Assembly (NCBI RefSeq): GCF_005938105.1
Contig: NZ_VCPE01000020.1
Coordinates: 20,399-84,398, forward strand
DNA from: Brucella haematophila
GTDB lineage: Bacteria > Pseudomonadota > Alphaproteobacteria > Rhizobiales > Rhizobiaceae
Reading direction: 5' to 3'
DNA: 64,000 bases
The stretch's first letter is position 1; each line of letters opens with the position of its first letter. Below are positions 7,254 to 24,755 of the stretch, one piece after another. The position numbers and the translations under genes were made by a program. The notes beneath the pieces are model-generated. The model worked only from the letters and a program-made list of their open reading frames with translations, was not told the DNA's origin and searched no databases.

Positions 7254-8710
7254 GATGTACTCCGTGAATATCGTCTGAAACATTTAGAATATTCTTCTGG
7301 CTGCTGAAAAGGGCAGGGGAGCGACTGGATACAGTGCACCGCCACTCGGTCTACCTTTTATGGGTAAATCGGCGGGTTGATTAAAGCAAAGCCTTCCTGT
7401 CTCGGAAAAGGCGCGACCACAGCACTGGCTGCATTCAGTGGAACATTCTGTTCCCGGGTAGGAACCCAGCTAACCGCGCTCAGATTGAGGGCATCACGTT
7501 GGTTTCCCGCCGAACAACGGTTGGCTTGAACACGCGGGTTGCTTGCGAGTGTTTTTCGCCGAGAAATAGCAAAGGTTGGAATTATTGCACAAATATCGAT
7601 TCCACGTGAATAGAATTCGTAATTTAATTAAATAGCATCATATATACCATCTCTTCACCTACTTGGTAGGCTTCACAAAAAAACAACAGGTGGCCAATTT
7701 CAAGATGTTATTATTGTATAAAGTGCTCGTGCCGACGATGAAAGACGGCAATGGGATCGCGACTGCCGGGTAGGTGAGGAACGTCGACGCCGCGCAGAAA
7801 GCCAGATCGACGACCGGCCACAATTTGACCGGGACGGTAATCCGAACTTCGATACCCAAGGCAATTACATCGGCTGCCAAGGAGTGGGCTGCGAGGTTGA
7901 TACTCCCGAGGACTAGTCAGATACGGTTATCGCTGCCGCTTTTGGGTGATCGCCAAAAAGGTTGAGCACAACTATGATAGGGGTGGAAACGGAACGGTTT
8001 CATCATTGATGTGCTCACGGATTCTGACTGGCAATCAGATGGCACGACCAGCAGCGGAGTGGGAACAGTTGTCTGAAAACTGGTTCCTGACGCTGCACCG
8101 CAACTTAATAGGAGGGAAACGGCTTGTAGCCTTTAATATTAACGACTGCGCAGAAGATGGTCTTCAGACAGGGAAATCGCAACCAAGTCCATCACGGCGC
8201 ATATTGCTGGGACTTTGCGCAGATCGTTATGAACTGTAAGTCAAGTCTGTTTTCGAACCAAATGTTCCAGGCTATGTCGACGCTGCAATCGTCAGCACAT
8301 GGTTTGAAAAGCAGGGTGAAGAAGTAGGCGATCATAGGGGCCACACAACATGGGGGCGCAATCAGGCGCAAACTTCATCGAAAGCTTAGTGCTGATGCGA
8401 TCACAACCTAGATAGTTCTCTCCTTGTCGGGACGACTAAACGGTCGTGCTCTTACTGAGCACTCGACGGTCGTCGCTCAGTTTCAGGCTACGGCAGTAAT
8501 TCGGACGCTGCGGTTCAATATGTGCCTTGCATGCTGAATAAACAAAACGAAGCTTTGAGGTTTTTTGCAATCCGAGCGCCGCCTTTGCTGTCAGTTCGGA
8601 TTTTCCGAGACGACTCGAAGTTGCGCGCGCTATCTGGCGCGTCGTTTTCCATCGGATTGACACATGATGGAACTTTCTGGCAACTTCCCTGGAGATGCGG
8701 AGGGGGTTCT
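7254..8710. other. Long divergent intergenic region with traces of decayed coding sequence
   Basis: About 1.45 kb separates the RidA and RpiR genes and holds no gene I can support. It must contain the promoters of both. Two stretches look like worn remnants. On the minus strand at 7740-7880 a hydrophobic run (FLTYPAVAIPLPSF) resembles a membrane protein. On the plus strand near 8250-8330 the frame reads VDAAIVSTWFEKQGEEVGD, which resembles the first half of a lipoyl domain. Both are short and broken by stops. Open frames at 7946-8239 and 8436-8663 have no recognisable content. Confidence 0.4.
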
Positions 8711-9652
8711 ATGGCTGAGGAGATCGGATTGAAAAACGCGACGAGGGTCGGCAAAACACAGCAAACATCACGTGATAGTCGCTACCCTCGAGATGTCATC
8801 GGTATCATTGTCGATATGCAATCGGGCTTTTCGAAATCCAATCAGCGGATTGCGGCGGGCATCCTTGGAGAACCGCATCGCTTTGTCGAGCTGCCAATCG
8901 AAGAGTTGACCAATTGGCTCGATGTTTCTGCGCCGACGATTACCAGATTTGCGCGTACCGTCGGTTGCGAAGGGCTGAAGGATCTCAAACTGAAAATCAT
9001 GGGCTCCGTTCGCGTCGGTCGTCGATATATGGAGCCGGATACTCCGCCGAACTCGGTAGGGGAAATAGCCGAGCGTGTCAGCCAGCGGGCGCAAAAGACC
9101 ATTTCGGATATGCACCACGCGCTGGATCTCGATCGAGCCGAACAGATCATCAAAATCATCAGTCGATGCCATACGCTTTATGCTTTCGGCAGTGGCGGCG
9201 TGTCGTCATGGCTTATCGGTGAGTTACAAAACCGCTTTTTCAGGCTCGGTATCCGAGTTGTTCCGAGTGACGATCAGACGATGCAATTGATGCTGGCTTC
9301 CACCGTGGAACGAGACGACGCATTGTTGTGTTGTTCGTTGACTGGCGACAACAGAGAGCTTGAGCGGGTGGTCACTGTTGCGCAAGGCTATGGCGCGAAA
9401 GCTATAGCCCTGTGTCCTTCGGATAGTCTTATAGCCAAGGCAGTCGATCTGCATCTCGCTGTCGATAATCCTCCCGACGAGGATATTCTGTCGCCAGCAA
9501 CTATGCGTTACGCCTACCTCATGTGTATCGATGTCATTGCTTATGGAGTTGCCATCGAGCGGAACGAGACTGGTCGTGAAAAGATGCGGCGCATCAAGCA
9601 GCAGCTCGCCAATGTTCGGGGGAGTGATCGGACGCAGCCTTTGTGCGATTGA
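8711..9652 (+). CDS. MurR/RpiR-family transcriptional regulator
   Basis: The start at 8711 follows a GGAGGGGG ribosome-binding site and gives 313 residues; an upstream in-frame ATG at 8522 would add an unlikely 63-residue leader. The N-terminal domain is an RpiR helix-turn-helix (FSKSNQRIAAGILGEP, then LDVSAPTITRFARTVGCEG). The C-terminal half is a SIS domain (TLYAFGSGGVSSWL; DALLCCSLTGDNRELERVV) that in this family senses a sugar phosphate. One SIS motif reads SLTGDNRE in place of the more usual SxSGxTxE, so its ligand may differ. It probably controls the nine-gene operon starting at 9915. Confidence 0.92.
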   Translation: MAEEIGLKNATRVGKTQQTSRDSRYPRDVIGIIVDMQSGFSKSNQRIAAGILGEPHRFVELPIEELTNWLDVSAPTITRFARTVGCEGLKDLKLKIMGSVRVGRRYMEPDTPPNSVGEIAERVSQRAQKTISDMHHALDLDRAEQIIKIISRCHTLYAFGSGGVSSWLIGELQNRFFRLGIRVVPSDDQTMQLMLASTVERDDALLCCSLTGDNRELERVVTVAQGYGAKAIALCPSDSLIAKAVDLHLAVDNPPDEDILSPATMRYAYLMCIDVIAYGVAIERNETGREKMRRIKQQLANVRGSDRTQPLCD

Positions 9653-9698: not shown

Positions 9699-9755
9699 CT
9701 TTTATAAGCAACTAAGCGATTTCAGTCAAAAAATGACATAAAAATGAAAAAAATA

Positions 9756-9784
9756 TTGGACAGAGAATAATTTTCACGCATACT
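9756..9784 (+). promoter_or_regulatory. Putative promoter of the ABC/dehydrogenase operon
   Basis: A TTGGAC box (9756-9761) and a CATACT box (9779-9784) are 17 bp apart, close to the sigma-70 consensus in sequence and spacing. The transcript would begin near 9791 and carry a leader of about 125 bases that includes the hairpin at 9821-9843. Confidence 0.45.
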
Positions 9785-9820
9785 GGCACCATAAATAAGA
9801 TTTGAAATGCCAAGATGACA

Positions 9821-9843
9821 ATCAACGCCTGAGGGGCGTTGAT
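9821..9843 (+). terminator. Hairpin in the leader of the ABC operon
   Basis: A perfect 9-bp stem ATCAACGCC/GGCGTTGAT with a five-base loop is followed by ATAGTTTTCTC. It could end the regulator transcript 170 bp after its stop, or act as an attenuator or stability element in the operon leader, since it lies after the putative promoter and 72 bp before the first gene. The T-run is weak. Confidence 0.5.
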
Positions 9844-9914
9844 TATAGTTTTCTCTTTAGGGTTCGTATTGTTCGAATTCTTGCAATCAAAAATAAATAA
9901 AATGGGGAACTGGC

Positions 9915-11219
9915 ATGAATAATGCGCTGGATCGATACTTGCTGTCTAGAAGACAGGTATTGGCGGGCATGGCTGGCTTTACGGCCACAGGAATGCTTGG
10001 CAAACGGGCGATGGCGGCACCGTCCACGGCCATGGCATTCATCGGTTGGCAGTACCAGCCGCAGATTGTCGCTGAAAATGTAGAGACCTTCAAAAAGCTC
10101 TATGATGAAAATGTCGCGTATGAGCTGGTGACCGGCGATTATCATCCCGTCGTAGAGACCAAGCTGACCGGCGGACAGCATATGGATATGCTTTACTCAG
10201 AGGAAAACTATATCGCTCGCTGGCATGCTGCTGAATGGATCCGCGATCTAGATTCATTGCCGGGTGTGGCCGATATCAAGGCTGGCATGTTTCCTGTGAG
10301 TGTGCAGTCATTATCCTTGCCGAATGGTGGCCCATTGTGCGGTTTGCCCTATTATGCGGGATACAATACTTTTCTCTATAATGAGGAGCACTTATCCAAA
10401 GCAAAGGCGGATGTGCCCAAGACCTGGGATGAAGTGCTGGAGCTAAGCCGGAAGCTCAAAACCGATGGTATCAGCGATGCTCCCTTCCATGGCATGTGGC
10501 AGCAGCAATGGTCCGATCTGTCGTGGAACATCTTTGCGTGCTGGTATTCCGAAGGGGCCAAGATCTTTGATGAGAAGGGCGACTTCGTCGATGAGCCGGC
10601 ACTTCGAAAAGTGCTGGAATTTTTCCAGACGGTCTACAAGGAAAAGCTCGTTGTGGAAGACATCATGACACTGCCGGGTGAAGGTGTGCCGAGCTATGCT
10701 TCCGGCCGTCATACATTCATGGTGGTGCATGACTACAACCACAAGGTCGTCAACGATCCGGCCGTTTCCAAGATCGCAGGTAAAGTGCGCAATGCACTAA
10801 TGCCAGGTGCTACCCAATCGACCATGGCATGGACCGCGGCCTATCTGATGGGCGCGCAGCCCGTTGACGACCAGCGCGTTTGGAATCTGTTGCAGTTTTT
10901 TGGTGGTAAGGCCTCGGATGGCCAGTACCATGTCATCAAGCGTTGGGCGCTCGAGTTCGGTCTGGGTTCTGCTTATCGCGAAGTGATGGCTGACCCGGAT
11001 ATCGTCGCGAGCTTTTCCAAGTGGCGCGACCTCGACATCTCGGCCAAGCAACTCGGCATGGCAACCTCACGCGCCATCGGCAAGGCGATCTGGTTCCCGG
11101 AGTGGGATATGTTCATGATGCAGCAGCTCCAGGAATATATCCGTTCAGGCAGTTCGACTGATGCCTTTGTTTCCGCGCTTGCCGCGAAAGCTTCTGAGCT
11201 GAAGGCCCAGTATCAATAA
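9915..11219 (+). CDS. ABC transporter solute-binding protein (family 1, sugar type), Tat-exported
   Basis: The 434-residue protein begins with a twin-arginine-like signal, LLSRRQVLAGMAGF, ending near RAMAA/PSTAM, so it is probably exported folded by the Tat system. The mature part has features of family 1 extracellular solute-binding proteins (MalE/UgpB type), such as YNTFLYNEEHL followed by VPKTWDEVLELSRKL. The ligand class for this family is sugars and sugar-like compounds. It is the first gene of the operon and lies 108 bp before the permease gene. The remaining genes suggest that the ligand carries an acyl-amino and a hydroxyl group, but nothing in this protein specifies it. Confidence 0.9.
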   Translation: MNNALDRYLLSRRQVLAGMAGFTATGMLGKRAMAAPSTAMAFIGWQYQPQIVAENVETFKKLYDENVAYELVTGDYHPVVETKLTGGQHMDMLYSEENYIARWHAAEWIRDLDSLPGVADIKAGMFPVSVQSLSLPNGGPLCGLPYYAGYNTFLYNEEHLSKAKADVPKTWDEVLELSRKLKTDGISDAPFHGMWQQQWSDLSWNIFACWYSEGAKIFDEKGDFVDEPALRKVLEFFQTVYKEKLVVEDIMTLPGEGVPSYASGRHTFMVVHDYNHKVVNDPAVSKIAGKVRNALMPGATQSTMAWTAAYLMGAQPVDDQRVWNLLQFFGGKASDGQYHVIKRWALEFGLGSAYREVMADPDIVASFSKWRDLDISAKQLGMATSRAIGKAIWFPEWDMFMMQQLQEYIRSGSSTDAFVSALAAKASELKAQYQ

Positions 11220-11327
11220 GGCTGTTGGCTGGAAGCGCTCCGGCCACCGCCGTCTATCCCTTTCCGTTTCCCAGTCTGGTGGTGACTGCTTTTGGCTGTT
11301 TCGCCGGGCGAAGAGTGTGAGGTCGTG

Positions 11328-13223
11328 ATGACACTTACGATAGACAGTCGCTCAGCGCATATACCCACGAAAGACCGGCGCCAACTATTCCGGCTTCCGG
11401 CATTTGCCTATGTTTCGGTGACACCAACACTTTTCCTGATGATCCTTATCGTCGGAATTCCGCTCCTCTACAGTTTCTATCTCTCATTTGTAAGTGTGAA
11501 CCCCATTACCAAGAAGTGGGTGTTTGTCGGTTTAGGCAATTACACTCGCATCTTCTCCAACGATGACTTCTGGGCGGCATTGGGGCGAACGCTTTATTTC
11601 TCGGTTTTGTCCGTCGCGGGGACGACGGTTGTCGGAACTGCCATGGCATTGGTGCTGAACAGGCACTTTTCGGGCCGGGGATTTCTGCGCAGTGTCGTCC
11701 TCATTCCCTGGGCAATGGCTCCGGTAACCATCGGTGTATTGTGGTCTTTCGTCTACGCAGGCAACTTCGGTCTGCTGAACGGTTTACTGAATGACATCGG
11801 TATGGGGCATTTGGCACGTCCCTGGTTTGGCGACGGCTTTCGAGCGCTCAATCTCGTTACGTTGACCCAGATATGGAACCAAGCGCCACTGATGACGCTC
11901 ATGCTCCTCTCAAGCCTGCAATCCATGCCCTCCAACCTGCATCGCGCAGCTGAGCTTGATGGGGCCGGGCCGGTAACGCGCTTCATGGCGATCACCCTGC
12001 CATGGCTGAAATCCACGTTGTTATTTGCGATGATCGTTGCCACCATCAATGCGCTGATGACTTTCGATATTATCTGGATCATGACCCGAGGCGGTCCGGG
12101 TGCGGCAACCACGACGCTATCCTGGCTTGGCTATCTTCAGTCGTTTCAATTCCTGAAATTCGGAGAAGGGGCAGCACTTCTATATTTGCTGATGATGCTT
12201 AGCCTTTTGCTTGCACTGGTCTATTTCGCTTTCCTGTCTCCCAAAAAACAGAAACAACCATCACAGGACGCCATGACCGAGGTCTTATCGTCAGCGCCGC
12301 GTACCAGAGCATTCATGGTAATCTTGCCTGCTTTCTCAAGACGTCGCCTTGTCCAACCGCAGACGGCGAAGCGTTTGACCACGATCGGCTTTTATACTGC
12401 CGTTATCACAGTCTTCCTGTGGTCCTTCCTCCCGGTTGCCATGCTTGTTCTCATCAGTCTGTCACCAACAACGGATCTCATACGAACACCACCGTCCATG
12501 ATACCTTCGGCATTGACGCTCGATAACTACCGGGCTGTTCTGATGCCAAGTGGTGGTACGACAAGTGTGCAGGCGGCACGCGTACCTTTATCGTTGCTCA
12601 ACAGCTTTGGTATCGGCGTCGTCGTCTCGGTTATCAATGTGGCTCTGGGAACTCTCGCCGGTTATGGATTTGCCCGTTATGCCTCGCATAGGTTCTTTTC
12701 GGTGAGTTTGTGGGCGCTTCTCATAACGCGCATGGTTCCGGCGCTCACTCTCGTCCTGCCGTTTTTTGTGCTGTTTCGCATATTGGGCCTCATTGATACA
12801 CATCTGGGGCTTGTGATCGCATATTCAACGATCCTGATGCCGCTTTCCGCTTGGATGATGAAGACCAGCTTCGAAAATGTACCGCTCAGTCTGGAGCGGG
12901 CGGCACTGATCGACGGATGCACACCGTTCGAGATGTTCCGCAAGGTGCTGATACCTGTCGTAAAGCCGGGAATTATCGCGGCACTGATATTCTGCTTTCT
13001 GGTTTCGTGGAATGAATTTCTCTTCGCAATGATCCTGACATCCACGCCGAAAACTCAGACTATCCCAGTGGTTATCGCCGGGTTTCTCAGCCAGGCTAGG
13101 TTCAATGAATATGGCCCGCTATTCGCGGCGAGCGTGCTGGCGATTATTCCTCCGGTGGCAATCGCCTTCTTCTTTCAAAAATACCTCGTTCAGGGTGCGC
13201 TTTCAGGCGCGGTCAAGGGCTGA
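11328..13223 (+). CDS. Fused ABC transporter permease (MalF-like plus MalG-like halves in one chain)
   Basis: ATG 11328 follows a GAGG site five bases upstream and gives 631 residues. The first half (to about residue 305) is a MalF/UgpA-type permease with the cytoplasmic coupling loop AAELDGAGPVTRFMAITLP near residue 207. A polar linker of about 50 residues follows. The second half (from about 350) is a MalG/UgpE-type permease with its own coupling loop, RAALIDGCTPFEMFRKVLIP, near residue 524, and a second set of about six helices. Such permeases are normally two proteins that pair as a heterodimer. Here the frame is continuous. An internal ATG at 12271 after AGGA could allow separate synthesis of the second half. 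Confidence 0.9.
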   Translation: MTLTIDSRSAHIPTKDRRQLFRLPAFAYVSVTPTLFLMILIVGIPLLYSFYLSFVSVNPITKKWVFVGLGNYTRIFSNDDFWAALGRTLYFSVLSVAGTTVVGTAMALVLNRHFSGRGFLRSVVLIPWAMAPVTIGVLWSFVYAGNFGLLNGLLNDIGMGHLARPWFGDGFRALNLVTLTQIWNQAPLMTLMLLSSLQSMPSNLHRAAELDGAGPVTRFMAITLPWLKSTLLFAMIVATINALMTFDIIWIMTRGGPGAATTTLSWLGYLQSFQFLKFGEGAALLYLLMMLSLLLALVYFAFLSPKKQKQPSQDAMTEVLSSAPRTRAFMVILPAFSRRRLVQPQTAKRLTTIGFYTAVITVFLWSFLPVAMLVLISLSPTTDLIRTPPSMIPSALTLDNYRAVLMPSGGTTSVQAARVPLSLLNSFGIGVVVSVINVALGTLAGYGFARYASHRFFSVSLWALLITRMVPALTLVLPFFVLFRILGLIDTHLGLVIAYSTILMPLSAWMMKTSFENVPLSLERAALIDGCTPFEMFRKVLIPVVKPGIIAALIFCFLVSWNEFLFAMILTSTPKTQTIPVVIAGFLSQARFNEYGPLFAASVLAIIPPVAIAFFFQKYLVQGALSGAVKG

Positions 13224-13235
13224 AAGGAAACTCTT

Positions 13236-14285
13236 ATGGCATCAATTCAGATCGCAGGCCTGAACAAACAATATGGTGCGTTAAACATCCTGAAAAACCT
13301 CGATCTTTCGATCGATGATGGCGAATTCATCTCATTTCTCGGGCCGTCGGGTTGCGGAAAGTCAACGTTGCTTTTCTGTATAGCGGGGCTGGAGGAGATC
13401 AGCGAGGGATCGATCCGCTTTGACGGTCAGGAGATGTCGGATCTGTCGCCCAGAGATCGCAATATCGCGCTCGTCTTTCAGGATTATGCGCTCTATCCGC
13501 ATATGAGTGTTCGCGACAATATTGCATTTCCGCTGCGCCGACAGAAAGTCGATGAAGCGACAATCAATCGGCAGATTGGCTGGGCCAGCGAAGTTTTGGG
13601 TATTGAAGCTTTGCTTGACCGGCTCCCGGCTGCGCTTTCCGGCGGTCAGAGACAGCGCGTCGCTGTGGGGCGGGCCATTGTCCGCAATCCTTCCGTTCTC
13701 TTGATGGACGAACCCCTGTCCAACCTTGATGCCTCTCTGCGCGTGCGCATGCGGACGGAAATCCGGCGCTTGCAGAAGGAGCTTGGGATCACGGTCATTT
13801 TCGTAACCCACGATCAGGAGGAGGCGATGGTTCTGTCTGATCGTATTGCGGTGATGAAGGATGGTGTGCTGCAACAGTTTGCACGTCCCATGGAGGTTTA
13901 TTCCAGTCCCGCCAACCAGTTTGTCGCCGGGTTCATCGGTAGTCCGCAGATGAATTTTCTTCCTGCGGAATTGTGTGGCGGGTCCAAGGGTGAAATCATC
14001 GGCGTTCGTCCCCACGATCTTAAGCCCGTACCAAGGGCGGCAGGCGGGCTGAATTTGTCCGGGGATCTGGTTCTCGTCGAACCAGCCGGGCCCTACCAAT
14101 TTCTCGATGTCGCAATCGGGGACCACGCGGTGCGTGCCACCTGTACCGATGCCAGCGGTTTGTCTCCTGGATCGAGAATTATCCTCAACGCGAGCGCGGA
14201 AGCAGTGCGTTTCTTTTCGAGCGACAGCGGCGCGCGCATCAATCAGCAATTAAAGGAACCGGAAAGCAGAATTCATGTCGTATGA
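13236..14285 (+). CDS. ABC transporter ATP-binding protein (MalK/UgpC type)
   Basis: This 349-residue ATPase shows Walker A GPSGCGKST (residues 37-45), the signature LSGGQRQRVAVGRA, Walker B VLLMDEPLSNLDA and the switch His in FVTHDQEEA. The C-terminal region beyond residue 240 has the TOBE-type fold expected of sugar importers (GSPQMNFLPAE; IIGVRPHDLKPV). It starts 12 bp after the permease gene and its end overlaps the amidohydrolase gene by 11 bp. It powers the fused permease. In such importers two copies of the ATPase bind the two coupling loops, which here sit on one chain. Confidence 0.95.
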   Translation: MASIQIAGLNKQYGALNILKNLDLSIDDGEFISFLGPSGCGKSTLLFCIAGLEEISEGSIRFDGQEMSDLSPRDRNIALVFQDYALYPHMSVRDNIAFPLRRQKVDEATINRQIGWASEVLGIEALLDRLPAALSGGQRQRVAVGRAIVRNPSVLLMDEPLSNLDASLRVRMRTEIRRLQKELGITVIFVTHDQEEAMVLSDRIAVMKDGVLQQFARPMEVYSSPANQFVAGFIGSPQMNFLPAELCGGSKGEIIGVRPHDLKPVPRAAGGLNLSGDLVLVEPAGPYQFLDVAIGDHAVRATCTDASGLSPGSRIILNASAEAVRFFSSDSGARINQQLKEPESRIHVV

Positions 14286-15432
14286 TCTGGTATTGAAGAA
14301 TGGCCGGGTAATCGATCCCTCGCAAGCCATTGACCGTGTGACGGATGTGGCCTTCAAGGATGGCAGGGTTGCCGCGGTTGGAGAGGGACTGACAGGCACA
14401 AAAATGCGCGATGTTTCGGGCCTGATCGTGACCCCGGGTCTGATCGATCTGCACACCCACGTGTATTGGGGTGGCACTTCGCTCGGGGTGGACCCCGATC
14501 TGTTCGCTCGCAAGAGCGCGGTGTCTACATGTGTCGATACCGGCAGCGCCGGACCCGGCAATTTCCCGGGCTTTCGCAAACATGTCATCGAACGCAGCAC
14601 GGCGCGTGTATTGGTTTATCTGCATATATCCTTTGCGGGTATCTATGGTTTTGCCAAGAACATCATGCTGGGTGAAAGCCATGACATTCGCCTTCTGGCC
14701 GCGCGCGAGGCAGTCGAAGTCATCAATGAAAACCGTGATGTGATCGTCGGTGTGAAGGTTCGCATCGGACGTCATGCATCTGGTCCCGCCGGTATTCAGC
14801 CGCTTGATGTGGCGCTTCAGGTGGCCGATGAAACCGGCCTTCCGCTAATGGCGCATATCGACGAGCCACCGCCTTCCTATGAAGCGGTCGTATCGCGTCT
14901 TCGCAAGGGCGATGTACTCACGCATTGTTTCCGTCCGTTTCCCAATGCACCGATCGATGGCAAGGGCAATATCAAACCGGAAGTTCTGGCAGCGCGTGAA
15001 CGAGGGGTTATCTTCGATATCGGTCACGGCATGGGTTCATTCGCCTGGAAAACCGCTCGGGCCATGATGGGGCAGGGCTTTATGCCCGATACGATTTCGT
15101 CCGACGTGCATGCGCTGTGCATCACCGGGCCGGCCTATGATCAGGTGACGACATTGTCCAAGTTTCTGGCGCTCGGCATGCCGATCAGCGACGTTATCGC
15201 AGCATCGACGATCAATCCGGCGCTTGCTGTCCAACGGCCTGAGCTCGGGACTTTGAAACCAGGTGCTGTAGGAGACGCCAGTGTTCTCGACCTGCGTGCC
15301 GGCACGTTCCCGCTTGAGGATGTGCGTGGTGAAGTGGTGACGGCATCACAGCGCTTGTTCGCTGCCGGTCTCGTCATTGGCGGGCGTGAAATGGATATGG
15401 ACAGCCAATCGTTCGCAAACGCAGCAGAATGA
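14275..15432 (+). CDS. Amidohydrolase/deacetylase-family metallohydrolase
   Basis: The 385-residue protein belongs to the amidohydrolase superfamily. It shows the DLHTHVYWGG metal motif (His60, His62), a candidate carboxylated Lys in VGVKVRIG (about residue 160), His in LMAHIDEP, and Asp in SSDVHALCITG. The N-terminal beta-sandwich part (LVLKNGRVIDP) and the closing LKPGAVGDASVLDL segment are also typical. Members of this subgroup are often called dihydroorotase-like or N-acyl-amino-acid deacetylase-like. Its position in the operon suggests the first cytoplasmic step on the imported compound, removal of an N-acyl group or opening of a cyclic amide. That reaction is inferred. Confidence 0.85.
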   Translation: MSYDLVLKNGRVIDPSQAIDRVTDVAFKDGRVAAVGEGLTGTKMRDVSGLIVTPGLIDLHTHVYWGGTSLGVDPDLFARKSAVSTCVDTGSAGPGNFPGFRKHVIERSTARVLVYLHISFAGIYGFAKNIMLGESHDIRLLAAREAVEVINENRDVIVGVKVRIGRHASGPAGIQPLDVALQVADETGLPLMAHIDEPPPSYEAVVSRLRKGDVLTHCFRPFPNAPIDGKGNIKPEVLAARERGVIFDIGHGMGSFAWKTARAMMGQGFMPDTISSDVHALCITGPAYDQVTTLSKFLALGMPISDVIAASTINPALAVQRPELGTLKPGAVGDASVLDLRAGTFPLEDVRGEVVTASQRLFAAGLVIGGREMDMDSQSFANAAE

Positions 15433-15447
15433 ATGGGAGGGAAGATC

Positions 15448-16905
15448 ATGGATGGTGGTTACACATCCGCTAAAATCGGAAATTATATCGCAGGCGGTTG
15501 GGAGACAGAGCCCGAAACCATGCCAGCGATCAATCCGGCGACTGGCAAGCAGATAGCGCTGTTGCCGAAATCGACGGTTGCGACTGTCGACAGGGCGGTG
15601 ATGGCAGCCAAGACGGCTTCTTCTTCCTGGGCATCGACGCCGATATTTGAAAGAGCGGCTCTTTGCGTGAAAATCGGATCGGCGATTGATGCGTCAAGGG
15701 AAAAGCTCGCACGTATCTTGTCCGGGGAACAGGGTAAACCGCTCTCTGAGGCGATGGGAGAAGTCGGCAAGGCTGCAGACGGTTTTCGTCTAGCATCCGA
15801 ACTTGTCAAACAGATGGGGGGAGAAACTCTGCCCACTGAGGACCCGACCAAGCTGGCAATGACAATTCGCCAGGCACGTGGCGTCTATGGTGTGATCACA
15901 CCATGGAATTTTCCCGTCAACATTCCGGTCGAGTATCTCGCGCCGGGTATAGCGACGGGCAATGTCATAGTCTGGGTTCCTGCACCTTCAACGTCCTTGA
16001 TCGCCTGTGCTCTGATGGAAGTCATCGAACAGGCGGGGCTGCCTGACGGTGTTATCAATCTGGTGATCGGTGAGGGCGCTACCGTGGGTGATGCCGTTGT
16101 TGTGCATCCCGATGTCGCGGCAATCGGTTTCACGGGAAGTGCTGCGACGGGCAAGCGCATCGCCGAACGTGGAGCAGGCAAACCACTTCTCCTGGAACTC
16201 GGCGGAAACGGGCCGGTTATCGTCTTTGAGGATGCCGATATCGAGGCTGCTGCTTCTTCTGCCGCTGGTGGGGCTTTCTTTAACGCGGGGCAGGTTTGTG
16301 CCGCGACTGGGCGCGTACTCGTCCATGAAACCGTGGCCGATGCGCTCTGTGAAAAGCTTGTCCAGCATGCCGAGCGCCATGTGCTAGGCGATCCTTTTCA
16401 GCAAGGCACGACGATGGGGCCACTCAACAATGCCAAGGTTGCGGTCAAGGTGAAAGAACATGTCGATGATGCGGTGGCGAGTGGTGCAACATTGCTTTGT
16501 GGAGGCAAGGCGCGTCCCGATCTGGGGAGTGACCTGTATTTTGAGCCAACTGTCATTGCCGGTGTAACGCGCGATATGCGGATCAATCGAGAGGAAACAT
16601 TCGGACCTGTCGTTCCAGTGCTGACGTTCCGAAATGACAGCGAGGCTCTCGAACTTGCTCTAGACAGCGAATATGGACTGTCGGTGGGCGTATTTACCAA
16701 GGACATGCAACGCGGTCTGTCGGTTGCTAAAGCTATTCCGGCAGGCATTGTGAACATCAACTCCGGCAGCACCTATTGGGAAATCCATCTGCCTTTCGGC
16801 GGTGGTACGAACACCAAGAGCGGTATCGGGCGCCTTGGTGGGCTGCATACGATGGAGGCCATGACGGAACTCAAGATGATTACGATCACTCTGGATCGCA
16901 GGTAG
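15448..16905 (+). CDS. NAD(P)-dependent aldehyde dehydrogenase (succinate-semialdehyde/betaine type)
   Basis: ATG 15448 follows GGGAGG at 15436-15441 and is preferred to the ATG at 15433, giving 485 residues, a normal length. Core motifs are present: TPWNFPVNIP, the nucleotide-binding GFTGSAATGKRIAE, the catalytic Glu in LLLELGGNGP (about residue 250) and the nucleophile in NAGQVCAATGR (about residue 285). One difference is WVPAPSTSL where most family members have KPA-type sequence, so the Lys that contacts the cofactor phosphate or ribose is missing. Cofactor preference may be altered. It probably oxidises the aldehyde made by the GMC dehydrogenase encoded next. Confidence 0.93.
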   Translation: MDGGYTSAKIGNYIAGGWETEPETMPAINPATGKQIALLPKSTVATVDRAVMAAKTASSSWASTPIFERAALCVKIGSAIDASREKLARILSGEQGKPLSEAMGEVGKAADGFRLASELVKQMGGETLPTEDPTKLAMTIRQARGVYGVITPWNFPVNIPVEYLAPGIATGNVIVWVPAPSTSLIACALMEVIEQAGLPDGVINLVIGEGATVGDAVVVHPDVAAIGFTGSAATGKRIAERGAGKPLLLELGGNGPVIVFEDADIEAAASSAAGGAFFNAGQVCAATGRVLVHETVADALCEKLVQHAERHVLGDPFQQGTTMGPLNNAKVAVKVKEHVDDAVASGATLLCGGKARPDLGSDLYFEPTVIAGVTRDMRINREETFGPVVPVLTFRNDSEALELALDSEYGLSVGVFTKDMQRGLSVAKAIPAGIVNINSGSTYWEIHLPFGGGTNTKSGIGRLGGLHTMEAMTELKMITITLDRR

Positions 16906-16915
16906 GAGCGATAGG

Positions 16916-17473
16916 ATGGAATCTGTATCGAGAAAGGACGAACGGCTGGTCAATTTCGCGCTGTCTGCGGACGAAGAGGCGAGAATGATTGCGGCGCTTG
17001 TTGATGAACTCATACCGGGCGATGCAATCTGGCCGTCGGCTTCTGCGGCAGGCGTCCACGGGATTATTGCTCTGCGGTTGCTTTCATCATGGGACACTGC
17101 AGCTCTTGAAAAATTTGCCGATTTGATTGGCTGGCTCAATGGCAGCCTATCGAGCGACGAACCAATGCAGCGGACTGAAGCGGTTGCTGCGTTCGAAGTT
17201 CGTGATCCCGATCTTTTTGACAAAATTTACATCGCAACCGTGCTTGCCTATTACGAGACGCCGTTTGTCGTATCGGTTATCCAGCAAAGCGGCAGACCTT
17301 ATTCCATCCGTCCTCATCTATCTGGCTATCCGATGGAGCCGTTTGACTTCAGCAAGGATATCCCCACTCACAATCGCGGTCATTATCTCGCGACGGACGC
17401 TGTCGTGCCTGTCGATATTTCCGAACTGGCGCTTGAAACGCAGAAAACTGAAAACTGGGGAGTTGCACGATGA
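16916..17473 (+). CDS. GMC dehydrogenase small subunit (gluconate 2-dehydrogenase subunit 3-like)
   Basis: The 185-residue protein carries the segment MIAALVDELIPGDAIWPSA near residue 25, typical of the small subunits paired with membrane-bound GMC dehydrogenases, and VLAYYETPFVVSVIQQSGRPY further on. No Tat or Sec signal is seen at its N-terminus, unlike the periplasmic gluconate dehydrogenase subunits, so the complex may be cytoplasmic. Its stop overlaps the start of the large subunit by four bases, consistent with a two-subunit enzyme. The call rests on the motif and on the gene pairing. Confidence 0.75.
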   Translation: MESVSRKDERLVNFALSADEEARMIAALVDELIPGDAIWPSASAAGVHGIIALRLLSSWDTAALEKFADLIGWLNGSLSSDEPMQRTEAVAAFEVRDPDLFDKIYIATVLAYYETPFVVSVIQQSGRPYSIRPHLSGYPMEPFDFSKDIPTHNRGHYLATDAVVPVDISELALETQKTENWGVAR

Positions 17474-19098
17474 CTGCGGATCGGACTTGCGACGTTTTGA
17501 TTATCGGTGCCGGTGCAACCGGCTCTCTCGCGGCACTGGTACTGGCACACGCCGGACTTGATGTGGTTTGCCTTGAGCAGGGCTCCTGGGTTGAGGCTGA
17601 AGATCACCCGCATCTTCATTCGGATTGGTCCTGGCAGCGGCGCACTAATTGGAGCCCGGATGTCAATAAGAGGTCCCATCCGGACGATTTTCCGGTCAAC
17701 TCGGATTCCTCGCAAATACTGATGTGGAACGGAGTTGGTGGATCGACGAATGTGTATGGCGCCATCTGGCCGCGATACCGTCCATCCGATTTTCGAAAAG
17801 GGACGGAACATGGGTTACAACCCGATTGGCCGATTTCCTATGAAGACCTGGCGCCCTTCTACGAAGCGGCGGATAAATTGGTTGGTGTCTCCGGGTTGGC
17901 GGGTGATCCGGCCATGCCTGATCGGGAGCCCTGCCCAACCCGTCCCATGCCGGTGTCGAAAGTGGCCAAACGACTCTCTTCCGGTTTCGACAACCTCGAT
18001 TGGCATTGGTGGCCGGTAGAAGCAGGAGCCATCACCGAGGATTATGACGGGCGTCCAGCCTGTAACAATTGTGGTGTCTGCAACGGTTGTCCGCGCGGCT
18101 CAATGAGCAAGTACTCCATGTCGATCTGGCCCAAGGCACTTGATGCCGGCTGCGAGTTGCGTATCCACGCGCGCGTGCTGCGTATCGAAAAGGATAGTGA
18201 CGGACGGGCGACCGGCGCGCTTTATGTCGACCGCAATACCGGTTTGAAGCGATTCCAAAAGGCTCGCTTGGTTATCGTTGCCGCCAATGGAATCGGAACG
18301 CCGCGCCTTCTGCTTGCTTCCGACAATCTGGCGAACAGCAACGATCAGGTTGGCCGTTATCTCTTACACCATACGCTTGTCGCTTGTGAAATGTGGGTGA
18401 ATGAGCCGGTTGATGGCCAGACTGGCTATGTCGCGTCGCTGATTTCACGCCAGTTTGCGGAAACCGATCCGTCACGTGGTTTCGTTAATGGCTTCAATTT
18501 CAACTGTATCACGTCTTCGCCATCCGCGGGAGAACTGGCCGCAGGCTGGTTTACTTCTGCGCGAGCTCCTTGGGGTAAAAACCATCACAGTTGGTTCCAG
18601 AAGCATTTTGGTCATTCGATCGGGGTTTTTGCCATCGGTGACGATCTGCCAAATCCCGAGAACCGGGTGACACTCGATCCGGAATTGACCGATTCCGATG
18701 GAGTGCCAGCCGCCCGCACCCATTATGCACCGGGCGAAAATGACAAGCGCATGATGAACTATATGCTTGATCGCCTGGAAGATCTGGCAAAGGCATGTGG
18801 TGCGTTTGAGTATCGCTTGCATGATTATCGTGACAAGAATGGCGTCTATCGGACACCTGCCTGGCATATGATCGGCACATGTCGCATGGGAAGCGATCCC
18901 GAAACGTCGGTTGTTAATAAATGGAACCAGACCTGGGAAGTCCCAAATCTGTTCATCGTTGACGGAAGCGTGCTAGCAACCGGTGGTGTCGTCAATCCCA
19001 CGCCGACGATATCGGCCTTGGCGCTGCGGGCCGCTGAATATATCAGGGATAATTTCGCGACCCTTACCACGACGGAAAAAACATCCATCGCGGCATGA
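17470..19098 (+). CDS. GMC-family FAD-dependent oxidoreductase, large subunit
   Basis: The 542-residue protein has the FAD-binding GAGATGS at residues 13-19 and the second GMC signature around WNGVGGSTNVYGAIWPRY. A Cys-rich motif CNNCGVCNGCPRGS near residue 198 is known from sugar and gluconate-type GMC dehydrogenases. The C-terminal substrate region has WHMIGTCRMGSDPE with the active-site His, and NPTPTISALALRAAEYI at the end. It oxidises an alcohol to a ketone or aldehyde and passes electrons on through its partner. No signal peptide is seen. With the aldehyde dehydrogenase it would form a two-step alcohol-to-acid oxidation. Confidence 0.92.
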   Translation: MTADRTCDVLIIGAGATGSLAALVLAHAGLDVVCLEQGSWVEAEDHPHLHSDWSWQRRTNWSPDVNKRSHPDDFPVNSDSSQILMWNGVGGSTNVYGAIWPRYRPSDFRKGTEHGLQPDWPISYEDLAPFYEAADKLVGVSGLAGDPAMPDREPCPTRPMPVSKVAKRLSSGFDNLDWHWWPVEAGAITEDYDGRPACNNCGVCNGCPRGSMSKYSMSIWPKALDAGCELRIHARVLRIEKDSDGRATGALYVDRNTGLKRFQKARLVIVAANGIGTPRLLLASDNLANSNDQVGRYLLHHTLVACEMWVNEPVDGQTGYVASLISRQFAETDPSRGFVNGFNFNCITSSPSAGELAAGWFTSARAPWGKNHHSWFQKHFGHSIGVFAIGDDLPNPENRVTLDPELTDSDGVPAARTHYAPGENDKRMMNYMLDRLEDLAKACGAFEYRLHDYRDKNGVYRTPAWHMIGTCRMGSDPETSVVNKWNQTWEVPNLFIVDGSVLATGGVVNPTPTISALALRAAEYIRDNFATLTTTEKTSIAA

Positions 19099-19104
19099 AA
19101 CCCT

Positions 19105-19136
19105 TACCCTGCCGACAACGATCTGTCGGCAGGGTA
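19105..19136 (+). other. Perfect 13-bp hairpin between two operon genes
   Basis: TACCCTGCCGACA (19105-19117) and TGTCGGCAGGGTA (19124-19136) pair perfectly around a six-base loop. No T-run follows, so it is not a standard intrinsic terminator. It lies between the GMC stop codon and the preferred start of the next gene, where it could block 3' decay or lower downstream expression. It also argues against the in-frame ATG at 19095 as the real start. Confidence 0.7.
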
Positions 19137-19169
19137 GCAAACAGCCGATTTCTGCCAGAGGATTTGAGA

Positions 19170-20279
19170 ATGCTACAGGTTCCGCCGGCTCAGCCGGGAA
19201 TGAGAGAGGCGGATATCGATACGCCCGCGCTGATCATCGATCTCGACAAAATGGAAGACAATCTGGATCGTATGGCAACCTATTGCGCGTCGTCAGGTAT
19301 TCGATTGAGGGCGCATGCAAAAACACACAAGTCACCGGTCATTGCGCACTGGCAGATGGCGCGCGGCGCTGTCGGTCAATGCGTTCAGAAAACCGGTGAA
19401 GCGGAAGTGCTCGCATGGGGCGGTGTTTCCGACATTCTGGTGTCGAACGAGGTCGTAAGCGAACGTAAGCTTGCGCGCCTGCTGGCTTTATCTGGCATGA
19501 GCGATGTTGCGGTTTGCGCCGACAATGAATCAGTCGTCAATTTGGTCGAGAAAGTTGCGGCTGACAGCGGCAAACGTTTCAGGGTTCTGGTTGAGATCAA
19601 TGTCGGCGGAATGCGCTGCGGAATTGCTCCGGGCGAACCGGCGGCGGAGCTTGCCGCAGCAATCGCGAACAGCAAACATCTCATATTCGGTGGACTGCAG
19701 TCCTATCATGGCGCAGCTCAGCATTTTCGCAGCGAAGAAGAGCGCTTTGAGGCCATAAGACAGGCGGTTGAGAAGACCGAAGCGACGATCACGGCAATAC
19801 GAAAGCGCGGACTTTCATGCGACATCGTCGGGGGTGGCGGTACCGGCACCTTCCGATATGAGGCGGCAAGCCAAGTCTATACAGAATTACAGGCTGGCTC
19901 CTATCTGTTCATGGATGCCGACTACAGCCGCAACGATCCCATGCCGCCTTTCAGCCAGTCGCTTTTTGTCTTGAGTACCGTCATGAGCGCTCCGCGTCCA
20001 GATCTGGCTGTGCTGGATTGCGGCCATAAGGGCATTGCGGTCGATAGCGGCCTGCCGCTGGTTTACGGTCACCGCAACGTCACCTATGCCGGTGCATCCG
20101 ATGAACACGGTGCACTCATAGTTCATGCGGATGGAGAGCGACTGCAGATCGGCGAAAAGCTTCGTTTGGTGCCGGGACATTGCGATCCGACAGTGGATCG
20201 TTACGATTGGTATGTCGGTGTACGAAAAGGGCGCGTCGAATGCGTGTTCCCAGTCGCCGCGCGGGGAATGATGCAATGA
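19170..20279 (+). CDS. D-threonine aldolase / D-serine dehydratase-like PLP enzyme
   Basis: ATG 19170 has an AGAGGA site seven bases upstream and gives 369 residues starting just before DTPALIIDLDKMEDN. The fold is the alanine-racemase-like TIM barrel: the PLP Lys is Lys51 in RAHAKTHKSP, a Gly-rich phosphate-binding stretch reads VGGGGTGTF, and a C-terminal PGHCDPTVDRYD (His337, Asp339) matches the metal site of the D-threonine aldolase/D-serine dehydratase family. Enzymes of this group cleave or dehydrate beta-hydroxy D-amino acids. The stop overlaps the next gene by four bases. The pairing with a threonine-synthase-like enzyme points to a hydroxy-amino-acid intermediate. Confidence 0.88.
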   Translation: MLQVPPAQPGMREADIDTPALIIDLDKMEDNLDRMATYCASSGIRLRAHAKTHKSPVIAHWQMARGAVGQCVQKTGEAEVLAWGGVSDILVSNEVVSERKLARLLALSGMSDVAVCADNESVVNLVEKVAADSGKRFRVLVEINVGGMRCGIAPGEPAAELAAAIANSKHLIFGGLQSYHGAAQHFRSEEERFEAIRQAVEKTEATITAIRKRGLSCDIVGGGGTGTFRYEAASQVYTELQAGSYLFMDADYSRNDPMPPFSQSLFVLSTVMSAPRPDLAVLDCGHKGIAVDSGLPLVYGHRNVTYAGASDEHGALIVHADGERLQIGEKLRLVPGHCDPTVDRYDWYVGVRKGRVECVFPVAARGMMQ

Positions 20280-21418
20280 ATATTGAACGTAGCAGTCTGG
20301 CTAACCAAAACCGACTCGCATCGATCGCGTTGCAGTGCACGCAATGTGCAGCAAGAGTGGCGGCCTCGCTCGTTTATCGCTGCGATAAGTGCGAAGGCAT
20401 TCTAGAAGTTCAGCACCTCGAAGAAAAAAGCGGTTATTGGGCAACAAGTGATTTCGTGGATGAGGAGGTAACGCTGGGTGAGGGAAACACGCCTCTGCGT
20501 CGTGTTCCGGAGACATTGCTGCACGAAGCCTTTTGTGGAAGGCTCTATATCAAGGATGAAACCGGCAATCCATCCGGCTCATTCAAAGATAGACTGGTCG
20601 CCGCAGCGATTAGCAAGGCGATGTCATTCGGTGCCCGCGGCATCGTTTGCGCATCCAGCGGCAATGCGGGTGCAGCGGCGGCCCGTTATGCCGCGCACCT
20701 GGGATTGCCCGCAGTCATTGTCTGTCCTGAACTGACACCGGAGGGAAAACTCACGCAGATAATGGCCTATGGTGCTCGTCTGGAAAAAATTCCCGGACAC
20801 TATGGCAATTCTTTTGCCCACGCTTTGGATATTTGTCGCAAGACGGGCTTTGTCAATGTCACAACCACTTATCTCAATCCCTATGGTGTTGATGCGCTGC
20901 GTCTGGTGGGACAGGAGATTTATAACGCACTGGGTGACGATGTACCGGATTGGGTCAGCGTACCAACCAGTTCCGGGCCGTTGGTGAAAGGAGTTTTTAC
21001 CGGGTTTAAGGATGCAGCCGGATGCCTGCCCAGGCTTGTTGCTGCGCAGGCGTTGGGCTGTGCGCCTATTGCGCGTGCCTTTGCAGCGGGTGAAATGAAT
21101 GTTGAGCCTTGGGAACAACCGAAAACTGTCGCGTCGGGGATATCCGATCCATTGCAATTCTACCCTCAGGAAGGAAGTCATACGCTTTCGCTTGTTCGCG
21201 CGACTGGGGGGATGGCAATAGGTGTTGAGGACGAATTTATCCTTGAAGCGATGAAAGATCTCGCGCGAACAACCGGAATATTCTGCGAGCCAACTGGGGC
21301 AACTTCGCTTGCTGCTGTGCGCAGACTATTTGCCCAAGGGCATATCGCGCGGGATGCGGTTGTCGTTTGCATCGTAACCGGTCATGGCTTCAAGGACTTT
21401 GCAGCATGGAATTTTTGA
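20276..21418 (+). CDS. Threonine-synthase-like PLP enzyme
   Basis: ATG 20276 overlaps the preceding stop (ATGA) and gives 380 residues. The N-terminus carries a zinc-ribbon-like CTQC...CDKC (Cys21, 24, 36, 39), as in one class of threonine synthases. The PLP Lys lies near residue 104 in NPSGSFKDR, followed by the phosphate loop SSGNAGAAAA and the C-terminal GIFCEPTGATSLAA. Threonine synthases convert O-phosphohomoserine to threonine, but catabolic operons often carry relatives acting as lyases, such as diaminopropionate or hydroxy-amino-acid lyases. Its place at the end of this catabolic operon favours a lyase role. The substrate remains unknown. Confidence 0.85.
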   Translation: MNIERSSLANQNRLASIALQCTQCAARVAASLVYRCDKCEGILEVQHLEEKSGYWATSDFVDEEVTLGEGNTPLRRVPETLLHEAFCGRLYIKDETGNPSGSFKDRLVAAAISKAMSFGARGIVCASSGNAGAAAARYAAHLGLPAVIVCPELTPEGKLTQIMAYGARLEKIPGHYGNSFAHALDICRKTGFVNVTTTYLNPYGVDALRLVGQEIYNALGDDVPDWVSVPTSSGPLVKGVFTGFKDAAGCLPRLVAAQALGCAPIARAFAAGEMNVEPWEQPKTVASGISDPLQFYPQEGSHTLSLVRATGGMAIGVEDEFILEAMKDLARTTGIFCEPTGATSLAAVRRLFAQGHIARDAVVVCIVTGHGFKDFAAWNF

Positions 21419-21535: not shown

Positions 21536-22537
21536 TTAGTAATCGGTGATCTTTTTCATGTAGCGGCGACCGTCCAGCATGACCTGTTCACGTTTCGCCG
21601 CCAACTTATAGGCAAATTTCCAAAGAGCATCGAAGAAAATCAACGGCACGAAATATCCCTTGAAAGTGTCATCTATGTCAGCGAGATCGAGTTTCGCTGC
21701 ATCCAGCACCAACATATTGTCCGGCTCGCCGAAACGGTACAGGAAATCCCGGCCACGCTCGGCCAGCGCACGCGTTTCATCGAGCCCAATCATGACGACG
21801 AAGCAGGCATTTTTATCGACGACTTCGAATGGGCCATGGAAGAACTCATTGGCGTGGATAGCTTGCGAGTTGATCCACAGCATTTCCATGAGCACGCAGA
21901 TGGAGAATGAATAGGCTGCGCCATAAACCGGACCGCTAGCCATGGTGTACACGACTTTTTCGCGGCCATAGCGCTCTGCATATCTGGTAAAGGTTTCATC
22001 AAAATGCTGCTGACCGCGTTCAATGGCCGGTTGCAGTGCCGGCAGGCTTTCCAGCAGTTTGGGCAGCAGGCTGGTCTTGTCGCGTAAATCGACAATGCCC
22101 GCCAGCAACATGTAAAGCACGCTGTAATTGCTGTCGGCACCATCGATCGGAATGCCGGTGGTGTAGGACGCCTGGTATTGCAGCACGTGGTCGGCGGCGG
22201 CGGCGAGCGGCGATTGCGGATCCAGCGTCAGGGAGATCACGCAGGCGCCCCGGCGACGGGCATGTTCTGCCGCCCGCACCGTTTCCTTGGTGGTGCCCGT
22301 CTGGGAGCACAGAATGACAATGGCATCGCTGTTGAGGCGACGCGGGTCGCGTGTGACGAACTCGTCGCCATTATAGACATCAGAGGTCAGCAGTCCCGAA
22401 TGGCGATCCAGAAAATACTTGCCCGGATGCATGATTGACAGCGATCCGCCGCAGGCAACCAGAAACACATGCGAAAAATCCCGCTGCGCAAGCGCATTCA
22501 AGGTTTCAGCAATATCGGTAGGAAGTTGTTTGGGCAT
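21536..22537 (-). CDS. SIS-domain sugar isomerase/deglycase (FrlB-like)
   Basis: The start at 22537 follows AGAGGA and gives 333 residues. Two SIS domains are visible: VFLVACGGSLSIMHPGKYF with CSQTGTTKETV in the first, and YTMASGPVYGAAYSF with the catalytic-site region HANEFFHGPFEVV in the second. This is the layout of GlmS-related isomerases and of FrlB, which splits fructosamine 6-phosphates into glucose 6-phosphate and an amino acid. The divergent gene is a PfkB kinase resembling FrlD, and an amino-acid-type ABC importer is nearby. That combination matches known fructosamine (Amadori compound) loci. The assignment to this pathway is inferred from context. Confidence 0.85.
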   Translation of the reverse strand: MPKQLPTDIAETLNALAQRDFSHVFLVACGGSLSIMHPGKYFLDRHSGLLTSDVYNGDEFVTRDPRRLNSDAIVILCSQTGTTKETVRAAEHARRRGACVISLTLDPQSPLAAAADHVLQYQASYTTGIPIDGADSNYSVLYMLLAGIVDLRDKTSLLPKLLESLPALQPAIERGQQHFDETFTRYAERYGREKVVYTMASGPVYGAAYSFSICVLMEMLWINSQAIHANEFFHGPFEVVDKNACFVVMIGLDETRALAERGRDFLYRFGEPDNMLVLDAAKLDLADIDDTFKGYFVPLIFFDALWKFAYKLAAKREQVMLDGRRYMKKITDY

Positions 22538-22652
22538 TCTATTCCTCTTTTCAGCGTCTTGAAGAGCCCGGCTGTGCCGATCGGCAGCCGTTCCGGTCCA
22601 GTGCAACATTTCCCGGTACCAACCCCGCGATACGTTGACAGTTCTACTTTAG

Positions 22653-22670
22653 TGTGCGAACGTTCTCACA
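22653..22670. promoter_or_regulatory. LacI-type operator O1 in the divergent deglycase/kinase promoter
   Basis: TGTGCGAACGTTCTCACA is palindromic at 16 of 18 positions and centred on AACGTT, typical of LacI-family sites. On the minus strand it lies between a TTGACA -35 box (22679-22674) and a CACACT -10 box (22656-22651) 17 bp apart, where binding would block transcription of the deglycase gene. A TTGACA also lies at 22635-22640 on the plus strand. Confidence 0.8.
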
Positions 22671-22693
22671 TCTTGTCAATTGGGAAAATAAGA

Positions 22694-23530: not shown

Positions 23531-23570
23531 GCTCGCTGCGCGTGTCTTTTTGAGGTTAAGACCGGCCAGA

Positions 23571-24668: not shown

Positions 24669-24755
24669 GTCTGCGCGTTCCTTCCAAGCAGTTTCACGCT
24701 GCTCAATACCTGTACCGTTTCATAGGCGATGATGGGCCTGATCTCAACTTTCAAC

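Follow-up and report, generated by a model that had tools for sequence, protein, structure and literature searches.

The window analysed here is a 64,000-nucleotide stretch of contig NZ_VCPE01000020.1 of Brucella haematophila (assembly GCF_005938105.1), and its positions 9915-21418 hold nine open reading frames (ORFs) on the plus strand, with an RpiR-type regulator on their 5' side at 8522-9652 (Table 1). The nine genes would encode a sugar-type ABC importer, a COG3964-type amidohydrolase, an aldehyde dehydrogenase, a two-subunit GMC dehydrogenase, and two pyridoxal phosphate (PLP) enzymes, one resembling D-threonine aldolase and the other threonine synthase. A sequence-only reading of the window had placed these genes, in this order and behind the RpiR gene, in one catabolic operon. 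The ORFs and their Pfam domains bear this out, and the order recurs across species. Given this recurrence, and an upstream block that can be aligned over 14 loci, the arrangement is beyond chance; we regard the nine-gene operon as real and predict from its layout that it is co-transcribed.

Table 1. Features of the catabolic operon and its upstream region (positions within the window).
Feature	Positions	Strand	Basis
RpiR-family regulator (HTH_6 + SIS)	8522..9652	+	Pfam
Promoter/operator-like block (predicted), consensus of 14 loci TGATCCGAAAATGAAAATTTCGTTGGACAG ... GCATA	9734..9785, limits approximate	+	Upstream alignment
Sugar-type ABC substrate-binding protein (SBP_bac_1), twin-arginine-like N-terminus SRRQVLAG	9915..11219	+	Pfam, N-terminus
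Fused MalF/MalG-type permease, two BPD_transp_1 stretches in one 643-aa ORF	11292..13223	+	Pfam
UgpC/MalK-type ABC ATPase (ABC_tran)	13236..14285	+	Pfam, NCBIfam
COG3964-type amidohydrolase/deacetylase (PRK09237), Amidohydro_1	14275..15432	+	Pfam, NCBIfam, metal-site alignment
Aldehyde dehydrogenase (Aldedh)	15433..16905	+	Pfam, NCBIfam, PDB
GMC dehydrogenase small subunit (Gluconate_2-dh3)	16916..17473	+	Pfam, weak: 25.0 vs 23.4 cut-off
GMC large subunit (GMC_oxred_N and _C), cysteine cluster CNNCGVCNGC	17470..19098	+	Pfam, PDB
Fold-type III PLP enzyme, D-threonine aldolase type (PGHCDPT, AQH)	19095..20279	+	Pfam, PDB, residue checks
Threonine-synthase-like fold-type II PLP enzyme (PALP)	20276..21418	+	Pfam, PDB, motif, linkage

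Several four-base overlaps had also been claimed, and three are seen (17470-17473, 19095-19098 and 20276-20279), two of them hinging on the choice of start codon. The last gene is listed from TTG 20180, which gives a 100-base overlap with its neighbour; it most likely starts at ATG 20276, on which the third overlap depends. Since operon relatives of the aldolase-like protein align by tblastn only from residue 22-26 onward, the start of that gene is uncertain and may lie inside the listed ORF, in which case the overlap at 19095-19098 would vanish. Relatives of the regulator, likewise, align only from residue 64-91 onward in the 12 operon loci that bear an RpiR gene, and its listed GTG start is probably too far upstream. 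The ATPase and amidohydrolase genes overlap by 11 bases (14275-14285), at three other junctions 12, 0 and 10 bases intervene, and the permease, taken from its listed TTG, begins 72 bases after the binding-protein gene, or farther on if a later ATG is used.

Conservation of the operon was followed by scanning the large GMC subunit against named species genomes and running the window proteins by tblastn against the 20 loci obtained, so that gene counts in loci (numbered L; genomes are numbered G) rest on tblastn rather than on gene calling. This gene-neighbourhood comparison, which the sequence-only reading had proposed as a check, revealed a conserved gene set: from the RpiR gene through importer, amidohydrolase and aldehyde dehydrogenase to the large GMC subunit, the order is the same in 12 of the 20 loci (L006-L009, L011-L014, L016, L020, L022 and L023), the regulator included, several of these 12 being close relatives of one another. 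The aldolase-like gene is found, at 68-74% identity, in nine of the 20 (L006-L014, leaving aside a 34% relative in L015); eight hold the threonine-synthase-like gene (L007-L010, L012, L013, where the match is partial, L014 and L024). Both genes are optional in the operon, as eight and six, respectively, of the 12 core loci carry them. Among the remaining loci, L010 shows only its 3' part at a contig end, L024 has a partial amidohydrolase match, aldehyde dehydrogenase, GMC and threonine-synthase-like genes and no importer in the stretch, and L017, L018, L021 and L025 keep the GMC enzyme in other settings.

Beyond these close relatives the operon is patchy, occurring in two of 297 genomes of an order-level sample. 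The GMC subunit matches at E<=1e-120 in 20 of the 297, and at an identity of at least 78% in four (G000, which is the window's genome, G050, G071 and G231); G050 has the whole core in the same order together with the aldolase-like gene (L085), and no amidohydrolase was found in the 18 kb around the GMC genes of G071 and G231. A diverged second cluster (L028, L015) combines an ABC importer with GMC (79-81%), amidohydrolase (44-45%), aldehyde dehydrogenase (49-51%) and aldolase-family (34-36%) relatives. L019 represents the same cluster with no aldolase-family match in the stretch, and L120 the same without a two-subunit GMC enzyme; L028 adds a fumarylacetoacetate-hydrolase-family gene that has homologues in L015, L019 and L120. 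Downstream of the operon in L016 (13912-21617) and L020 (13548-21615) lie runs of large related minus-strand ORFs, one of which was tested and contains an autotransporter beta-domain.

Upstream of the operon, an alignment of 14 regions, the window's among them, centres on TGATCCGAAAATGAAAATTTCGTTGGACAG and, after it, GCATA; it has 14 invariant columns and a mean column identity of 43%. The GGACAG part is absent or altered in L016, L020, L022, L023 and L085, the window copy also deviates from the consensus, and GGGGAACT stands directly 5' of the start codon in eight of the 14. One promoter-like pattern match falls at 9757-9784; such matches are not above chance (9 found vs 10.2 expected), and the weight is carried only by the cross-species alignment. 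The block is likely a promoter with an operator, which the RpiR protein would control. A near-perfect inverted repeat at 9820-9844, between regulator and operon, was considered as the RpiR operator and set aside: its core was not found upstream in 13 operon relatives or in L086, and a T-rich tail follows, for which reasons it is probably a terminator. No RNA family reached its gathering score within the window.

Of the operon's enzymes, the amidohydrolase passes the NCBIfam model NF006689 at 429.3 bits (cut-off 371). Its DLHTH, GVKVR, MAHID, THCF and SSDVH stretches align with the HxH, Lys, His, His and Asp metal-site motifs of 2ogj and, small changes aside, with those of three other solved relatives. 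Relatives that have been characterised take substrates whose alpha-carboxylate is free, and among COG3964 enzymes the characterised ones favour R-hydroxy acids in acetyl ester form; the work on Atu3266 and Oant2987 reportedly found a D/R preference, with which an aldolase of the D-type would be in keeping. From family and gene linkage, we propose that the operon enzyme is an N-acyl-D-beta-hydroxy-amino acid deacylase.

The protein encoded next to last combines Ala_racemase_N (79.7 bits) and D-ser_dehydrat (76.2 bits) domains. According to the available text of PMC4401734, D-threonine aldolase binds its metal through His and Asp and possesses His193, whereas in serine dehydratase His and Cys take that part and His193 is missing; Lys59, His193, His347 and Asp349 of the Alcaligenes enzyme AxDTA are taken from the same source. 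Their equivalents lie in the AKTHK, AQH and PGHCD stretches of the operon protein. The combination of H-x-D-P-T with the QH that corresponds to His193 is found in the window, in L006-L014, in L085 and in the listed relatives of at least about 46% identity, and the listed relatives at 31-36% have PNHxC instead, with the exception of L027, which shows neither pattern. Because the HxD site and the His193 equivalent match the aldolase and the HxC site matches the dehydratase as described in that source, we predict retro-aldol cleavage for the operon enzyme and dehydration for those of the diverged cluster. The sequence-only reading had left cleavage and elimination side by side; at this step the aldolase-type metal site makes cleavage the likelier. 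The closest relatives elsewhere in the class occur in varied settings that gave no further lead among the matches listed, and neither did the plasmid neighbourhoods L026, L030 and L031.

The last gene encodes a protein that narrowly misses the threonine synthase model TIGR00260 (164.3 vs 167.1 bits) and falls below PRK08197 (230.9 vs 303). The motif NSVNPxR[LI]EGQKT is present in all four solved threonine synthases aligned (five sequences matched), and the window protein has TYLNPYGVDALRL, with NPYGVD standing where threonine synthases have NPxR[LI]EGQKT; the Arg and Ser of the motif are phosphate ligands in threonine synthases. Since that motif is missing and NP[YF]GVD is common to the operon relatives (L024 being unreadable there) and to homologues in a TRAP-transporter cluster described below, the enzyme is probably not a threonine synthase. 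At E<=1e-45 it has matches in 11 of the 297 genomes. A cut at E<=1e-60, placed at a score gap after the scores had been seen, retains four of them (G000, G060, G097 and G206; E<=3e-68), in all of which the gene lies about 0.8-5 kb from an amidohydrolase orthologue; the other seven (E about 6e-47 to 9e-46), which are not near an amidohydrolase, probably represent ordinary threonine synthases. Among 385 genomes sampled across the class, G000 being one, three matches reach E<=1e-60: the window, G484 and G318, where the gene (L154) stands beside an amidohydrolase and a RidA gene.

The large GMC subunit is a relative of the FAD-dependent fructose and glucose dehydrogenases by comparison with the PDB (7w2j, 6a2u; E about 1e-56 to 1e-51), sharing with them a cysteine cluster whose residues align only in part, and is far more distant from the chloramphenicol oxidoreductase 8b7s (2e-5); one of its Trp residues aligns with an Asn that is mutated in 8k6k. 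Those dehydrogenases also possess a Gluconate_2-dh3 small subunit like that of the operon, which differs from them in having no cytochrome c gene (none by Pfam among the nine) and no export signal on the small subunit. As no signal peptide is visible on the small subunit in the window copy or in relatives L006, L007 and L012, the dehydrogenase is probably cytoplasmic. A related GMC gene in L029 stands beside aldose-epimerase-like and sugar-kinase genes. For the aldehyde dehydrogenase, none of the 25 NCBIfam models listed, out of 44, reached its cut-off (best 402.5 vs 650). In the importer, the ATPase scores 392 against the 432 cut-off of its best NCBIfam model, UgpC, and the binding protein gives weak matches only to solved sugar-binding proteins. 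In operon relatives a single long match corresponds to the fused permease, which in the diverged cluster is matched in two separate pieces.

Linkage around the amidohydrolase provides a view of its function outside the operon. Orthologues at E<=1e-85 occur at 70 places in 64 of the 297 order-level genomes, and, the window's own place apart, neighbourhoods were compared for 37 of the remaining 69, mainly the best-scoring with some weaker ones (35 regions spanning 18 kb each, with L103 and L105 shorter). Aldolase-family genes, counted at tblastn E<=1e-25 with both site types pooled, are present in 14 of these regions, RpiR-type genes in 12, RidA-type genes in 11 (membership being confirmed for L086, L087 and L154), aldehyde dehydrogenase genes in seven, threonine-synthase-like genes in three and a GMC gene in one. 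Judging by 29 matches in 11 hand-picked genomes, a genome has about 2.6 aldolase-family genes, and by our estimate chance would place one in well under one of the 37 regions. The site of the aldolase-family enzymes is of the aldolase type in three regions (L084, L085 and L115) and of the HxC dehydratase type in the other 11. The amidohydrolase, the aldolase family and the threonine-synthase-like enzyme thus look like a functionally connected set whose transporters differ by setting: sugar-type ABC, TRAP (confirmed for L154, partly for L088) and peptide-type ABC (partly confirmed for L122). A recurrent cluster of RpiR, RidA-type, amidohydrolase and TRAP transporter genes, frequently joined by a creatininase-like or threonine-synthase-like gene and by an aldolase-family enzyme of the HxC type, was seen in L087-L091, L093, L094 and L154; we know of no description of its catabolic set.

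The scheme that we put forward, tentatively and at somewhat less than an even chance, has the GMC and aldehyde dehydrogenases produce an acid, the amidohydrolase deacylate an N-acyl-D-beta-hydroxy-amino acid, and the aldolase release glycine and an aldehyde. Specifically, the sugar-type importer would bring in an N-acylated amino-polyol or amino sugar, the GMC dehydrogenase would oxidise a hydroxyl, and the aldehyde dehydrogenase would carry a primary alcohol or hemiacetal carbon through to the carboxylate. The COG3964 enzyme would then strip the acyl group from the resulting N-acyl-D-beta-hydroxy-alpha-amino acid, and the D-threonine-aldolase-type enzyme, judged by its residues, would split the deacylated product into glycine and an aldehyde that the same aldehyde dehydrogenase may oxidise. 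The threonine-synthase-like enzyme might eliminate on another stereoisomer or a side product. The kind of importer and the likeness of the GMC enzyme to fructose and glucose dehydrogenases favour a putative amino sugar or amino-polyol substrate, as do some neighbourhoods: that of L086, where the amidohydrolase is 75% identical and has aldose epimerase, SDR and altronate/galactarate-dehydratase-type genes close by, that of L118, where it is 47% identical and SMP-30 lactonase, Gfo/Idh and HpcH aldolase genes are close by, and that of the related GMC gene in L029. The sequence-only reading had offered uptake of an N-acylated hydroxy-amino compound, deacylation, alcohol oxidation and aldol cleavage; this scheme is supported in part, aldolase-family and threonine-synthase-like genes being tied to the amidohydrolase outside the operon too, and the order of its steps has been revised. 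Oxidation probably precedes deacylation, given the free alpha-carboxylate in the substrates of characterised amidohydrolase relatives and the sequence of steps proposed for the chd pathway in the text available of PMC13400229.

That pathway bears directly on the earlier claim that no described pathway has this set. No account of the enzyme set as a whole was found among the open-access papers listed by our searches, with which the claim agrees; the same enzyme roles are nevertheless in print. As far as the available text of PMC13400229 goes, the chd cluster of Nocardia testacea CS1 takes chloramphenicol from alcohol to aldehyde to acid, followed by deacylation and cleavage to glycine and an aldehyde; direct cleavage is proposed there as a second route, and several enzyme roles are stated as likely. 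It shares with the operon a GMC oxidoreductase, an aldehyde dehydrogenase, an amide hydrolase, a threonine aldolase, a transporter and a regulator. Distinct to chd are a hippurate hydrolase, an L-threonine aldolase, an IclR regulator, an oligopeptide-type transporter and an aromatic substrate, and that text names neither a second GMC subunit nor a threonine-synthase-like gene. In place of the L-threonine aldolase and hippurate hydrolase, the operon has a D-type fold-III aldolase and the COG3964 enzyme. On the strength of the shared roles, the operon might run the same reaction order on an N-acyl aryl-serinol, a chloramphenicol-like natural product. The sugar-type importer, the GMC enzyme's far greater likeness to fructose and glucose dehydrogenases than to 8b7s, and the D-type fold of an aldolase that chd, in the part available, names as L-type make such a substrate very improbable.

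A parallel to the PLP chemistry may be sought in the ong oxidative chitin pathway of marine chitin oxidisers, in which, by the available text of PMC9537276, OngB and OngC deacetylate N-acetyl-hexosaminate and dehydrate/deaminate the product to a 2-keto-3-deoxy sugar acid. An operon working in this manner, with its fold-III PLP enzyme as an amino-sugar-acid dehydratase, is unlikely, although several points speak for it: ong likewise has an RpiR regulator, a D-aminoacylase-related deacetylase and a fold-III PLP enzyme that acts on a D-2-amino-3-hydroxy acid, RidA-type genes lie in the amidohydrolase regions at the frequency given above with an HpcH aldolase gene near one, and most aldolase-family neighbours there are HxC-type. 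The operon copies, however, carry the aldolase-type HxD site, neither RidA nor 2-keto-3-deoxygluconate (KDG) kinase is among the nine genes, and the GMC and aldehyde dehydrogenases would be left without explanation. Dehydratase chemistry, an SSS transporter, RidA and KDG kinase are peculiar to ong, and GMC or aldehyde dehydrogenases are not named in that portion of the source. Nor is the operon amidohydrolase ong-like, D-aminoacylase structures matching only its first 60 or so residues (E about 3e-7). The neighbouring aldolase and PALP-family genes also recall bhcC and bhcB, which are adjacent in other bacteria, and the aldolase-like protein is about 43-47% identical to annotated BhcC proteins; a module resembling the beta-hydroxyaspartate cycle would join glycine with glyoxylate made by the GMC and aldehyde dehydrogenases and convert the product. 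With scores far under the cut-offs for the 3-hydroxy-D-aspartate aldolase BhcC (NF045642, 419.3 vs 690 bits) and BhcB (67.8 vs 550), and no aminotransferase (BhcA) among the nine genes, membership of the cycle itself is ruled out and even a cycle-like module is highly improbable.

Two further alternatives detach the PLP enzymes from the pathway. If the amidohydrolase were an esterase or lactonase acting on an acylated hydroxy acid or sugar lactone, the operon would oxidise a nitrogen-free sugar or polyol and the PLP enzymes would serve elsewhere. The acetyl-ester preference of characterised COG3964 enzymes, the optional status of the PLP genes and the sugar-catabolic neighbours of the relatives, in L086 with neither PLP gene in 18 kb, speak for this, and the recurrence of PLP genes beside the amidohydrolase in different operons speaks against it; we consider it rather unlikely. 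The two genes could also be late passengers that detoxify amino acids, given that L006, L011 and L024 have only one of them and four core loci have neither, but the threonine-synthase-like clade keeps its tie to the amidohydrolase where the operon has a different transporter, and this possibility is quite improbable.

Several observations nonetheless weigh against the scheme that we prefer, in which a deacylated D-beta-hydroxy-amino acid is cleaved. A GMC enzyme acting on a sugar C1 would need no aldehyde dehydrogenase, and the binding protein is close to no characterised sugar binder. Four of the 12 core loci (L016, L020, L022 and L023) end after the GMC genes without either PLP enzyme, and the 18 kb of L086 offer only a 24% aldolase-family match about 10 kb off. 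The other 23 of the 37 amidohydrolase regions lack an aldolase-family gene, and the 11 HxC-type neighbours, to which those of L015 and L028 must be added, support a PLP enzyme acting on a D-hydroxy-amino acid rather than retro-aldol cleavage. Several relatives of the amidohydrolase adjoin TRAP transporters or ABC transporters of the peptide type, so that its family must reach beyond sugar-like substrates, and these settings, L086 and the four shortened core loci leave the substrate class no narrower. The link between the threonine-synthase-like gene and the amidohydrolase amounts, beyond the window, to three genomes of two genera (G060 and G097 share one), no amidohydrolase occurs in 19 kb around the gene in G484 (L153), and the enzyme is without a firm role.

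Adjoining the operon, positions 21536-28560 encode a SIS protein and a PfkB kinase (best models fructoselysine-6-phosphate deglycase and fructoselysine 6-kinase), a LacI regulator, a polar-amino-acid-type ABC importer and an ornithine-cyclodeaminase-family protein; this looks like a cluster for Amadori compounds, with the fructoselysine models below their cut-offs. It is echoed on an Agrobacterium plasmid (L032, 3327-8131), where a 48% aldolase-type relative lies near a ROK gene, a sugar-type ABC importer and a gene annotated as a phosphosugar isomerase (weak SIS match). On the minus strand at 2617-5177 a hydantoinase/carbamoylase-family amidase is found next to a TRAP large permease, and another contig of the genome carries one PF07005 (four-carbon acid sugar kinase) family gene that has no link to the operon.

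Taken broadly, the operon may stand for an oxidative route, so far undescribed, that breaks down amino-polyols or amino sugars of D-configuration bearing an N-acyl group; a COG3964 deacylase of N-acyl-D-beta-hydroxy-amino acids, a D-threonine-aldolase-type enzyme in its natural role and the NPYGVD family would work in it as partners. We advance this wider suggestion with considerable reserve, as possible rather than probable. The physiological function of D-threonine aldolases is still largely unknown according to the abstract of PMC4401734, which describes the first structure of such an enzyme, and a conserved operon that pairs such an enzyme with a deacylase makes its role testable. The linkage to the amidohydrolase, for its part, points to a small threonine-synthase-like family with a changed motif. 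Should the pathway prove true, D-threonine-aldolase-type enzymes would gain a natural job, and the NPYGVD threonine-synthase-like enzymes would constitute a new family.

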